Of a stretch of DNA of 44,570 nucleotides, positions 13,523-18,421 are shown piece by piece. This stretch comes from Pseudobdellovibrionaceae bacterium. GTDB taxonomy: Bacteria > Bdellovibrionota > Bdellovibrionia > Bdellovibrionales > Bdellovibrionaceae. Position numbers and translations under genes: made by a program. How positions within the stretch are numbered: the first letter of the stretch is position 1; each line of letters begins with the position of its first letter. Location: the NCBI GenBank assembly GCA_021731025.1, contig JAKFYD010000009.1, positions 1 to 44,570 on the forward strand, in the 5' to 3' direction. The notes below the pieces were generated by a model. It ran no database searches, was not told the DNA's origin, and was given only the letters and a program-made list of their open reading frames with translations.

Positions 13523-15160
13523 TCATTTTGTATTTAAATTTTTATAGAGTTCTCTATAAACTTGGCTAGCTTCATCCTGAATAAAGGGACTGCGTTCTAT
13601 TGTGTAACTATAGATGAAACTTCGAAGATCCTTCTTTAATTCTTCTGATATTTCGGCACGGTGGATTTTAGTTAAATTTGGAAACTCTTTCAAGGCATTA
13701 ACTGTTGCTTCTGGATTTTTCATTGGATTTTCGAGTGATCTAAAATCTACATTATTGAAAAATTTATTTCTCTTGAGCATTTTTATTCTCGCTTCACGCA
13801 TGGGAAGGACTCGCTTTAGTTTAGTCAAGTAACCTTCAGCAACTGGCATATCTTCAGACAGAAAAGGCGTGATGCTTTTGTAAGTGTTCATTGGTGTATG
13901 GATACCGATTAAATTGCTGTTAATTACTTCTTTTCCCATCGCTTTATTTAGGACAGTAGCGATATAAGAAGAACAATTTTTGGTTAATATATTGTAGTTG
14001 TCCTTTAGGTTTTTAATGTCCCTATTGATAATATAAATTAATACCCGTTTCTGTAAACGAGTCAGCCCTAAAATCCTCTCATGAATGTCTCGTCCTTGTT
14101 GAATTGTTGTATCTAGCCACTTCATAAGGTACTTTACAGGATGGACTTTGAGCTCCAGTTGTCCTGTGGCTCCTTGCCACAAGAAATCATAACGTGAAAT
14201 TGGGTGTTGTTGCCCGTACTCCTGTTTTGCTTTTAGTTCGCTGGGCGTTTCAAATCCATCGAGGGTAGGCATGCCCGAGATATTTCCTGCGGCCTCGATT
14301 AGGTAATCCTCAAATGGTTTTTTAGGATCCATATGAAAACGCATCAGTGCGTGGCCAAAATTACTTTCTGTTTCCTCTGCTGAAGGTGAAACGTATATAA
14401 AACCTATATCAGTGACTTTCTTCGAGTCAATTGGCCTATCCATTTCTTCAGGGCATTCCGACGCCTCCACCATGGACTGTCCTATCCAATAATAAAACCA
14501 AACGTAGGACTGTGGGTGTTTACAAAGGTAATCAGGATCATAAAAATATCCCTCGGCCTGAGTTGCAAGATCTTCTCTGGGATTCCTTTCCCCATATTCT
14601 CTGTATGTTCCTTCTGCTTTGGCTCTATTTACCTTGAGAGAACTAACGTTCCCTTCCCAAGCATTAATTTGACGGAACTCGTCGGTCTTACTGTACCCCA
14701 TTTTGATGTCTAACTGATGAGTTAACTCATGAACGATCAATTTCTTAGACAAAGTATCATTAAGTTGAAATAATTGTTTGTTTTTAACATAGCTGAATAC
14801 TTGGTCAGTGAGTACGATCTTACCTAGCTGACTAAAACCCATATGGACGGTTTCTATGGTCTTGCTATCTAAGCTACTGGTATTCAGATCAAGTTCACAT
14901 TTTTTTTGTATATAAAATTCGTCTTTTATAGATAAATAGGTCTCCGGTAATGCCCGAGAGACCTCTTGAATTAAACTAACTTCTCTTTCGGTAAAATTAC
15001 ATCCCGATTTTTTTGAAAGCTTAAGCGCAAATGGAATTCCATCCTTAAGATAAATTAGAGAATCAGAACTTTCTTTAACGAGAGTCGAGTTTGTACCTAT
15101 GGCAAATGCCATCACAAACGGTAACCCTAAAGCAATAAAAACAAACAAGTTCTTTTTCAT
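13523..15160 (-). CDS. Secreted HExxH metallopeptidase fused to a DUF4105 domain
   Basis: A signal peptide (MKKNLFVFIALGLPFVMAFA) begins the 545-residue protein. The first half has HELTH at residues 144-148 and a downstream Glu in NPREDLATQAEGYF (about residue 196) placed as a third zinc ligand, so it looks like a gluzincin-type metallopeptidase. The second half fits DUF4105, seen in Lnb N-terminal and other periplasmic proteins and thought to have an NlpC/P60-like fold: SNFGHALMRF (His270) and KNCSSY (Cys396) are the expected catalytic pair. The final 100 residues are Lys-rich and helical. AAGGAA precedes the ATG at 15160. A small secreted gene starts upstream (15205-15537), probably in one operon. 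The substrate is unknown; cell-wall or surface protein processing is an inference. Confidence 0.85.
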   Translation of the reverse strand: MKKNLFVFIALGLPFVMAFAIGTNSTLVKESSDSLIYLKDGIPFALKLSKKSGCNFTEREVSLIQEVSRALPETYLSIKDEFYIQKKCELDLNTSSLDSKTIETVHMGFSQLGKIVLTDQVFSYVKNKQLFQLNDTLSKKLIVHELTHQLDIKMGYSKTDEFRQINAWEGNVSSLKVNRAKAEGTYREYGERNPREDLATQAEGYFYDPDYLCKHPQSYVWFYYWIGQSMVEASECPEEMDRPIDSKKVTDIGFIYVSPSAEETESNFGHALMRFHMDPKKPFEDYLIEAAGNISGMPTLDGFETPSELKAKQEYGQQHPISRYDFLWQGATGQLELKVHPVKYLMKWLDTTIQQGRDIHERILGLTRLQKRVLIYIINRDIKNLKDNYNILTKNCSSYIATVLNKAMGKEVINSNLIGIHTPMNTYKSITPFLSEDMPVAEGYLTKLKRVLPMREARIKMLKRNKFFNNVDFRSLENPMKNPEATVNALKEFPNLTKIHRAEISEELKKDLRSFIYSYTIERSPFIQDEASQVYRELYKNLNTK

Positions 15161-15204: not shown

Positions 15205-15537
15205 TTATTTAACACCATTTTCTAGAACGTACTTAGCAGCATCATGAATTTCCATATTATTTTTCTCTGCATAGGCGCCCAAGAATGAAGGATTAAAAAA
15301 TTTATTCTCTTCAACGACCATAGTGGCTTCACGGAGAACCATTTCTGGGTTCACTTCCGCACAGCTAAGCAACGAAGTTGTACCAGTTGGAGGAGAAGTA
15401 GTTATGGTCAGTGGCAACATTATATCAGCAAGTTCACCAATTTCACTTCCTCCGCCACCCCTCCCACCGCAACTTGCGAACGATTTTACAGATACAAATA
15501 CAAGTGTAAAACCTAACATTAATAATTTCGTTTTCAT
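15205..15537 (-). CDS. Small secreted glycine-rich protein of unknown function
   Basis: The ATG at 15537 is chosen over a frame reaching 15582 because AGAGG sits upstream of it and the peptide then starts with a signal (MKTKLLMLGFTLVFVSVKSFA). The 110-residue product is followed after cleavage by SCGGRGGGGSEIGELADIML, then a Thr/Pro-rich stretch and a helical C-terminus. Two Cys remain in the mature form. No family was recognised. It precedes the metallopeptidase-DUF4105 gene by 44 bases and may be its partner, for example an inhibitor or substrate; that is speculation from position only. Confidence 0.7.
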   Translation of the reverse strand: MKTKLLMLGFTLVFVSVKSFASCGGRGGGGSEIGELADIMLPLTITTSPPTGTTSLLSCAEVNPEMVLREATMVVEENKFFNPSFLGAYAEKNNMEIHDAAKYVLENGVK

Positions 15538-15743
15538 AAAATCCTCTGTACCGTTCCGATTGTGTTGGGATAAATTTCCCATAGTGACACCCTAACGGTT
15601 TTTCAGGTTGCCGACATTGCGAAAATTATTCCAGATGTCTAGTGTTGTTATTGTCGAGTGGGAGGCAAATTGAGTGTCTAAGCACTTAGCAAGTGACGGA
15701 ATAGATCGTCGAACTTTTAGACAAGCATTTTTTAAATTAGTAA

Positions 15744-15784: not shown

Positions 15785-17641
15785 CTAACTCGCCGACTTC
15801 ACCAGTTTCGAAGTCCAATCCTGAATGGAAGACAGCACTCCCTCTTTCGCATTCGAGAATTGCACTCCGTAAGCTTTGTTCTGTTCGTTCCACACGATGC
15901 GACCGGCGATTTCGATCTCTTGCCCATCTGGACCTTTGATCTTCATCGAGACTTCTCCGCCTTTGTCCAGAGCAGCGTCTGCATTGAATGAAGCACCACC
16001 CATAGAGATTGTGTTCATGTGCGCCACCAACTCGCGATCACCGACTTTGATGCGGATATCTGTATCCATCATGAATCGATCATGACGTCGTTGATTTTTA
16101 GGTTTGCGTTGGCGAAGAGCCCACCACAACAACACGGGTAAAGAAATAAGAAAGATCACGGCACCCGCTGAAGCGCCGGGGCTGCCTCCTCGAGGAATTT
16201 GTGTTAAGGCTGTTGAAACCAATCCACATCCAGCGCCGCCACCTGATGAAGAGCCTGCCGAGGCTACTCCGCGGTCGTCTTGATATTTTGGTGAATAGCT
16301 AGGTTGCGAAGCCAAAGTGGAAACATTGGATTTTGCATTTGCAATTAAGTTGTAAGCATTGATTCGCGCCGCTGAAAGAACTTTCCCGCTCAGGTTACCG
16401 AAAGTTTGCGCTGTTGCCATGGCCAATTGTTTAACTTGATAGCCCGTCAAATTCGGAGCTTCTCGCATGGCTAAAGCAGCCATTCCCGCAACGAAGGGCG
16501 CTGCCATCGAAGTTCCTGACATTGATCCGTAGTAACCGCCAGGCAAAGTGCTGTAGATGTAAACTCCAGGACTTGCCAAGTGCACCCGCTGTCCACCGTA
16601 ATTTGAAAATGAAGCTAAGCCGTCGGCATCGGTCGTTGCAGCTACTGAAAGATTTCCTGGAACATCGTAATTTGCAGGATACATATCTGAGGCATCATTA
16701 TTTTTCGAGTTATTACCAGCAGCACTGATCACAAGAGCTTGATGATCGTAAGCATAACTGATGGCATCGAGCAGTGATTTCGAATAACTGGGGCCTCCCC
16801 AAGAACAGTTAATCACTTTCGCGCCCATGTTCACAGCATAATACATCGCTTTGATGGCATTTGAAGTTGAGCCCGAACCATTGGCATCCAAAAATTTTAA
16901 GGGCATCACTTGAATTCGCGATTGATCCAGAGAACTCGAAAAAATATCAAGACTTGCGCCGACGACGATTCCACCCACATGAGTTCCGTGACCTTCATCA
17001 TCCGCAAAATTCGCCGAATTCGTTATAAAATTCCAGCCTGACACGTCGTCAATGTAGCCATTCATATCATCGTCTAAATTATTGTTAGGAATTTCGCGAC
17101 TGTTCACCCACATTGCACCCGTATTATTAAACACACGGTGAGTCTTATCTAAACCTGTATCAATAATAGCAACAACCGTTTTCGAAGCAGCACCCACGGC
17201 CGACATAATTCCCCAAGCTTGCTCCACCTTAACGTTGGCGTAACTTTGCGTGTAGTAAGTCGATGATTGCGCTGTCACGTCGCTTTCCGACAGCACTTCC
17301 ATCACTTCGCCCGGAGTTTGCTCGCTGATTTTATCCATAATGTAATTCGGCTCCACGAATTCAACATCAGGATCATTTTGTAATTCAGTCACTGTGGATT
17401 GCTGATCTTCTTTCACGGAAAAGTGGAACATGTTCATATCAGGAAATGCGGCTTTTAAGCTAGCTTTGCCAGAAATTTTTCCGATCACGTTAACGCTATT
17501 TGTTTGTTTTTTAAATTTAACCAAGTATTCGCCAGGAACTACGCGGGGCTGCTGCGCTAAACCAACAACACTCAGAAACTGAATCATGACTACAAGAACC
17601 AAGTTATATTTGGATTTTAAGAACCACGATTCGGTAGCCAC
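15785..17641 (-). CDS. Membrane-anchored subtilase (S8) with cytoplasmic PilZ domain
   Basis: The GTG at 17641 is the start: AAAGGAG lies 5 bases before it, whereas an ATG 30 bases upstream has none. In the 618-residue product, a signal peptide (ending near GLAQ, residue 30) and an I9-like propeptide (about 32-105) lead into a peptidase S8 domain with Asp161 (AIIDTGLD), His218 (DDEGHGTH), oxyanion Asn310 (AAGNN) and Ser378 (MSGTSMAAP). A Ser/Gly linker with GCG follows, then one transmembrane helix (about 490-509), a basic RQRKPK stop-transfer and a PilZ domain (about 517-600). PilZ keeps RxxxR (Arg518, Arg522) but has TISMGG for [D/N]xSxxG. The protease faces outward and the PilZ inward, so c-di-GMP could control it. 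It stands alone, divergent from the DUF502 gene. Confidence 0.92.
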   Translation of the reverse strand: MATESWFLKSKYNLVLVVMIQFLSVVGLAQQPRVVPGEYLVKFKKQTNSVNVIGKISGKASLKAAFPDMNMFHFSVKEDQQSTVTELQNDPDVEFVEPNYIMDKISEQTPGEVMEVLSESDVTAQSSTYYTQSYANVKVEQAWGIMSAVGAASKTVVAIIDTGLDKTHRVFNNTGAMWVNSREIPNNNLDDDMNGYIDDVSGWNFITNSANFADDEGHGTHVGGIVVGASLDIFSSSLDQSRIQVMPLKFLDANGSGSTSNAIKAMYYAVNMGAKVINCSWGGPSYSKSLLDAISYAYDHQALVISAAGNNSKNNDASDMYPANYDVPGNLSVAATTDADGLASFSNYGGQRVHLASPGVYIYSTLPGGYYGSMSGTSMAAPFVAGMAALAMREAPNLTGYQVKQLAMATAQTFGNLSGKVLSAARINAYNLIANAKSNVSTLASQPSYSPKYQDDRGVASAGSSSGGGAGCGLVSTALTQIPRGGSPGASAGAVIFLISLPVLLWWALRQRKPKNQRRHDRFMMDTDIRIKVGDRELVAHMNTISMGGASFNADAALDKGGEVSMKIKGPDGQEIEIAGRIVWNEQNKAYGVQFSNAKEGVLSSIQDWTSKLVKSAS

Positions 17642-17739
17642 AAATGCTCCTTTACAAACTGCTATTAGCATTGATTATTTATCGGACCTAGGTCGGGAAA
17701 GCTTAAGGACCAACTTGAGACTTACGTCATTAATTGCGC

Positions 17740-17812: not shown

Positions 17813-18421
17813 ATGACCATCATTCTTGAAAAAATCAGACAGATTTTCCTTAAGGGATTACTGACATTATTACCTATTGCCGTCTCAATTTATATTATCT
17901 ACGCCGGTTTTTCGATTCTGGAAAATCTTCTGGGGAGTTTACTGAGGGGAATCCTACCCGAACATGTTTACATTCCTGGATTCGGTTTTATACTCACTCT
18001 GATTCTGATATTTCTTTTTGGGTTGATGCTGAACAACCTGATTTCAGTTTCTTTCTGGGGTCAGATCGAGCGTCGTTTGACCGAAGTGCCATTAATCAAA
18101 GCGGTGTATTCTCCCCTTCGAGATTTGATGAACCTTTTCACCAAGGGGCACAAAGAATTACAACGAGTGGTGTTGGCTGAAATTAGCCCTGGCTTTAAAG
18201 TGATGGGGCTAGTGACCCGTGAAAAATTTAATGATATACCCCGAGCCAGTGCAACCTTAGAAAACAAGGTCGCCGTTTACGTCCCACTGAGCTACGCCCT
18301 GGGAGGAGTCACTTTGATCGTCGACAAAAGCAAATTGACCCAGATCGATATCCCTGTTGAAAGAGCACTCAGTTTAGCTGTTACGGGATGGGTGACCACG
18401 CAAAATGAAGGAAAAGATTAA
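17813..18421 (+). CDS. DUF502 family membrane protein
   Basis: The 202-residue protein matches the DUF502 family: an N-terminal pair of hydrophobic helices (about 12-34 and 55-78, with ILTLILIFLFGLMLNNL), then a soluble domain with the conserved run RLTEVPLIKAVYSPLRDLMN (about 87-106), and FKVMGLVTRE. The family is widespread and uncharacterised. No strong ribosome site is seen before ATG 17813. Its TAA overlaps the ATG of the next gene (TAATG), so the two products are coupled. It faces outward from the subtilase gene with a palindrome between them. Confidence 0.85.
   Translation: MTIILEKIRQIFLKGLLTLLPIAVSIYIIYAGFSILENLLGSLLRGILPEHVYIPGFGFILTLILIFLFGLMLNNLISVSFWGQIERRLTEVPLIKAVYSPLRDLMNLFTKGHKELQRVVLAEISPGFKVMGLVTREKFNDIPRASATLENKVAVYVPLSYALGGVTLIVDKSKLTQIDIPVERALSLAVTGWVTTQNEGKD

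Follow-up and report, generated by a model that had tools for sequence, protein, structure and literature searches.

Results

A subtilase, a membrane helix, and a PilZ domain in one predicted chain

The window analyzed here is a stretch of 44,570 nucleotides (contig JAKFYD010000009.1) from a Pseudobdellovibrionaceae bacterium. Its minus strand carries a single open reading frame encoding an S8 subtilase joined through one transmembrane (TM) helix to a PilZ domain (Table 1). Translated from a GTG at 17641, the frame runs for 618 codons to its stop, and the start is preceded by AAAGGAG-CATTT, of which AAAGGAG is Shine-Dalgarno-like. An alternative in-frame ATG at 17671, ten codons upstream of the GTG, would yield a product of 628 residues. 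Positions of Pfam matches are given below in the 628-residue numbering, and residue names (Asp161, Cys472, R518, and so on) in that of the 618-residue form. Neither a structured RNA near the gene nor a promoter clearly above chance in a scan at the gene was found. The architecture first observed in the earlier note is confirmed: a chance or annotation artefact was rejected given the Pfam domains and an architecture conserved across the class, and a peculiarity of this one genome was rejected given orthologs found across the class.

Table 1. Features of the subtilase-PilZ gene and its divergent neighbor, in window positions
Feature	Position	Strand	Remarks
S8 subtilase-TM-PilZ gene	15785..17641	-	618 aa; GTG start; stop at 15785-15787
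Predicted Sec signal peptide, residues ~1-28	17558..17641	-	Cut near GLA/QQ; residue bounds inferred
Inhibitor-type prodomain, residues ~30-99	17345..17554	-	PF22148, 7.3e-6
Peptidase S8 catalytic domain, residues 153-412	16406..17185	-	PF00082, 4.1e-50
Linker and Gly-rich spacer, residues 413-491	16169..16405	-	GCGLV motif with Cys472
Transmembrane helix, residues ~492-510	16112..16168	-	Pro502; hydropathy and charge
PilZ domain	15815..16096	-	PF07238 over cut-off; R518/R522 of RxxxR; T544-I-S-M-G-G549
DUF502 membrane protein, divergent neighbor, conserved context	17813..18421	+	PF04367, 1.9e-22

Conservation of the exported protease and its tether

To describe conservation, we aligned 84 orthologs chosen as near full-length matches, so that the residue counts given here describe intact members of the family. 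The signal peptide proposed in the earlier note is supported by a lysine in the n-region, the hydrophobic core YNLVLVVMIQFLSVVGLA, and an N terminus that is hydrophobic by hydropathy in 76 of the 84 sequences. Behind it, Pfam matched a fervidolysin-type prodomain (39-109) and Peptidase_S8 (163-422). The catalytic residues Asp161, His218, and Ser378 and the oxyanion Asn310, which had been read correctly in the 618-residue numbering, are invariant (84/84). The chain thus combines the catalytic Asp, His, and Ser and the oxyanion Asn of an S8 peptidase with a signal peptide and an inhibitor-type prodomain. Among solved sequences, the protease is closest to deseasin MCP-01 (2.7e-58).

Conservation is uneven along the chain. 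Mean pairwise identity among orthologs was 57% for the protease and 47% for PilZ; the spacer averaged just 21% and the TM helix 30%. Within the spacer, Cys472 is present in all 84 orthologs, in the motif GCG[LMT][VI], and 47 of them have no other cysteine in the mature chain; the distance from this cysteine to the helix varies from 11 to 41 residues. Inside the helix, Pro502 occupies one aligned position that is proline in every sequence. Median net charge among the orthologs is +5 over the 15 residues after the helix and 0 before it. From this basic flank, the positive-inside rule strongly predicts a cytoplasmic C-terminal PilZ domain and a periplasmic protease, in agreement with the topology originally proposed.

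A PilZ domain with a family-wide variant of its second motif

The PilZ domain, which begins about 8 residues after the helix, was matched by PF07238 (8.2e-16 at 526-619), so that both domains named in the earlier note were recovered by profile search. R518 and R522, the arginines of the RxxxR motif of canonical c-di-GMP-binding PilZ domains, are invariant (84/84), as are G548 and G549, and S546 is kept in 83 of 84 orthologs. The second canonical motif, [D/N]xSxxG, reads TISMGG here, with the serine and glycine kept. It had been called imperfect, and it does depart from the consensus; the departure, however, is shared by the family and is not peculiar to the window copy, since the first position is T in 47 orthologs and S in 30 (T/S in 77/84), with D in 2 and N in 1. 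As judged from the alignment, T/S is a family trait and not decay of the window copy, and decay was rejected on this ground. Other PilZ proteins of the same genome mostly have D or N at this position; E and S also occur.

We built a structure model of the PilZ domain from three sequences, with modest confidence (pLDDT 61.5). Foldseek matched it to PilZ structures with probability 1.00 and E values down to 8e-5. Its best matches were the c-di-GMP-binding PilZ domains of Alg44, MotI, BcsA, YcgR, and VCA0042, and the non-binding tetrameric type ranked behind them. The profile match and the six-stranded barrel of this model both place the domain in the PilZ family.

Distribution across the class and mainly vertical inheritance

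Within the order, about 110 of the 141 genomes searched had a match extending from the protease into PilZ, at 40 to 61% identity. All three genomes of a sister family in the same class had one as well. The search for the same architecture in other Bdellovibrionota that the earlier note had called for thus found it class-wide. A search of the phylum covered 369 genomes, and outside the class it gave subtilase-level matches only (E about 1e-38 to 1e-81). In a subset of 103 genomes of the order that were ≥90% complete and ≤5% contaminated, the full gene was missing from eight or nine, the majority being small genomes from a single family; a copy truncated by a contig end was not scored as an absence. 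Possession of the gene is close to universal in the class. In a maximum-likelihood tree built on the protease portion of 89 sequences, grouping is largely by family, some long branches excepted, so inheritance has been mainly vertical.

The window genome also carries a degraded partial copy of the gene on another contig (C74, ~1113-1408; locus L116, 914-1209). It corresponds to residues 387-427 (83% identity) and 465-544 (69%), which lie in different frames with stop codons.

Repeated loss of PilZ from a retained protease

Five relatives (L087-L091) have the protease, the cysteine, the TM helix, and the basic end but no PilZ domain. No PilZ remnant was found in any frame at these loci, and frameshift artefacts were rejected on that basis. 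The protease tree requires five separate changes, although L087 and L088 are on long branches. On at least five independent occasions, then, PilZ was lost and the Cys-TM-basic tail kept, so the protease has a PilZ-independent role. Three of these copies share their genome with a full-length copy (G119, G015, and G053), and L087 and L088 are the sole copies found in their genomes (G120 and G092, respectively). Since GGDEF genes remain in the latter two genomes, loss of c-di-GMP synthesis is not supported as the cause of PilZ loss.

More broadly, GGDEF enzymes are kept in all 28 tested genomes of ≥90% completeness. Eight small genomes of one family (G102-G105 and G123-G126; 1.4-2.0 Mb), several of them incomplete, gave no PilZ match of any kind; they also lack the subtilase-PilZ gene, and each had 0 to 2 GGDEF matches.

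Gene neighborhood

The divergent DUF502 gene recurs at 39 loci, the window among them and almost all within the window's family, and a gene for a 466-residue protein is a conserved neighbor at 39 loci of that family too. At 30 loci, nearly all outside this family, the protease gene adjoins a SurA_N/rotamase (PpiD-like) gene, and mreC and mreD are often close by, a context that hints at envelope biogenesis. Examples from other families of the order are L083 (2542-7260) and L087 (772-4500), where the protease gene has as its neighbor a gene for a PpiD-like chaperone, which itself adjoins mreC. The PilZ-less gene of L087 is in this usual place, with a racemase gene directly after it.

Two further genes lie on the minus strand of the window. 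One (13523-15160) encodes a 545-residue protein with an Lnb_N match (2e-8) and a sub-threshold M90-like stretch. Beside it, a gene at 15205-15582 encodes a small protein of 125 residues that may carry a signal peptide and matched nothing in Pfam.

Discussion

Relation to known systems

The earlier note knew of no described protein of this kind, a claim that holds in part. A survey of 2008 lists a Subt-PilZ protein of B. bacteriovorus, NP_969350.1, in a table entry labeled "Signalling" (Tripathi & Sowdhamini 2008, PMC2605481). Given the same pair of domains (subtilisin and PilZ) in the same lineage, this protein is very probably an ortholog of the window protein; the survey entry itself gives no topology, conserved Cys or Pro, distribution, or mechanism. 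In literature that included few subscription journals, we found no study of what the subtilase-PilZ fusion does. A protease and a C-terminal PilZ domain also share one membrane protein in Leptospira, in the PrsW-PilZ fusion LIC_20173 of L. interrogans (PMC12943098, PMC11800159). In contrast to the periplasmic serine protease predicted here, however, that fusion is an intramembrane metalloprotease that crosses the membrane with nine helices, and its PilZ domain is non-canonical.

In Alg44 and BcsA, PilZ is likewise attached to a protein of the inner membrane whose action reaches past the cytoplasm, but they serve polysaccharide synthesis and export and have no protease. The receptor LapD has no PilZ domain and carries degenerate GGDEF-EAL domains; a Pfam scan of the window protein found no LapD-type HAMP and no degenerate GGDEF-EAL. 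In the LapD/LapG system, the state of c-di-GMP in the cytoplasm governs, across the inner membrane, proteolysis in the periplasm (PMC3032545, PMC3032553). It is a functional analog of, and a precedent for, control of periplasmic proteolysis from inside, although it consists of two proteins and LapG is a cysteine protease.

A proposed mechanism and its alternatives

We propose, at roughly even confidence, that a c-di-GMP-responsive PilZ domain, or a c-di-GMP-dependent partner of it, controls the assembly or position of a tethered single-pass periplasmic protease. The Sec signal peptide would export the subtilase as a zymogen, whose prodomain would then be shed. The mature protease would stay tethered in the inner membrane by its long, flexible Gly-rich spacer and single helix. 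c-di-GMP would act on the cytoplasmic PilZ domain right at the membrane; if the altered motif no longer binds ligand, the input could come from a c-di-GMP-dependent partner acting on PilZ. In either case, PilZ would control the assembly state or position of the protease and hence which periplasmic targets are cut, through recruitment, clustering, or dimerization, possibly fixed by Cys472-Cys472 disulfides. The ligand, the direction of control, and the substrate in this scheme are putative.

Because the spacer is variable and Gly-rich, rigid conformational pressure on the active site is less likely than recruitment, clustering, or dimerization. With PilZ so near the helix and the protease on a long, variable spacer, a signal could readily alter helix packing, oligomer state, or position, whereas a push on the active site would hardly be possible. 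The proposal is consistent with the class-wide orthologs, which largely follow the families on the tree, the invariant catalytic, PilZ, Cys472, and Pro502 residues, the basic cytoplasmic flank, and a PilZ domain better conserved than the spacer and the TM helix. It also agrees with a PilZ model closer to c-di-GMP-binding than to non-binding structures, with the GGDEF enzymes of all 28 tested genomes of ≥90% completeness, and with the lack of the gene in the eight small genomes that gave no PilZ match. Against it stand the T/S motif, the decoupling effect of a flexible spacer, the PilZ losses, and the modest confidence of the structure model.

The same T/S substitution would also suit an unlikely reading in which PilZ no longer binds c-di-GMP and instead places the protease at a protein complex, for example the machinery of cell elongation or of envelope folding. 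PilZ scaffolds of a non-binding kind are known (PMC10333796), and the 30 loci adjoining SurA_N/rotamase genes, often near mreC and mreD, would fit such a docking role. However, a ligand-free scaffold need not keep the RxxxR arginines, invariant here, or the almost invariant S546, E or S stands at the variant position in other PilZ proteins of the window genome, and the model, at its modest pLDDT, resembles ligand-binding and not non-binding PilZ structures. The invariant cysteine lends itself to two further readings. If Cys472, in the periplasmic spacer and often the sole cysteine of the mature chain, formed an intermolecular disulfide, the protease would be constitutively dimeric and PilZ would have a minor tuning role. 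Repeated loss of PilZ without loss of the protease would agree with this, but the great majority of orthologs keep PilZ with invariant signature residues, and we regard such a covalent dimer as very improbable.

Quite unlikely, in our view, is a role of Cys472 as the core of a sorting tail, with the cysteine lipidated and the chain cut after it; this would leave a lipid-anchored protease in the periplasm or at the surface and a TM-PilZ stub in the inner membrane, and PilZ could control the processing. The earlier note had pointed to a resemblance to MYXO-CTERM tails, and the likeness stands as far as the order of invariant cysteine, TM helix, and basic cluster. Cys472 is preceded by GG or AG and followed by G, it is the lone cysteine in just over half of the orthologs, the helix has an invariant proline, the Cys-TM-basic ending persists in each of the five PilZ-less copies, and MXAN_5598 provides a precedent for an internal MYXO-CTERM (PMC11980579). 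Against this reading, no CPBP/Rce1 protein is present in the window genome; among 30 genomes of the class that were tested, 12 have none, and the cysteine is kept in most of these 12. A search of the window genome with a tail profile returned the subtilase-PilZ protein, its degraded copy, and one insignificant match, hence no second convincing or intact carrier, where several would be expected of a MYXO-CTERM system. The tail is also internal, with PilZ following it except in the PilZ-less copies, and the spacer between cysteine and helix is long and variable. As for GlyGly-CTERM processing, three rhomboids of the window genome are weakly similar to rhombosortase, but they score 30-33 bits against TIGR03902, whose cut-off is 84, and a fourth has no match. 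The CPBP and tail-profile results weaken the case for myxosortase processing.

Implications for Bdellovibrio and its relatives

Extending the proposal of a PilZ-controlled tethered protease, a bolder and rather doubtful version holds that this is a one-chain inside-out system ancestral to the class, to which the Bdellovibrio predators belong. The T/S-variant PilZ domain would bind c-di-GMP and hold, cluster, or release the periplasmic protease, by way of the invariant-proline helix and a single modified or cross-linked cysteine. Such a system may be linked with envelope folding and cell-shape machinery, as well as with the transition from one to the other of the attack and growth phases. c-di-GMP controls the life-style change of Bdellovibrio. 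B. bacteriovorus HD100 has 15 PilZ receptors (PMC3271064). Most Bdellovibrio PilZ receptors are without a known output; subtilase-PilZ has a clear and testable one, proteolysis beyond the inner membrane. The invariance of Cys472 and Pro502 offers precise handles for mutants. Subtilase-PilZ would be a single-chain counterpart of LapD-LapG, and its architecture suggests one-piece control, from inside, of cutting outside the cell.
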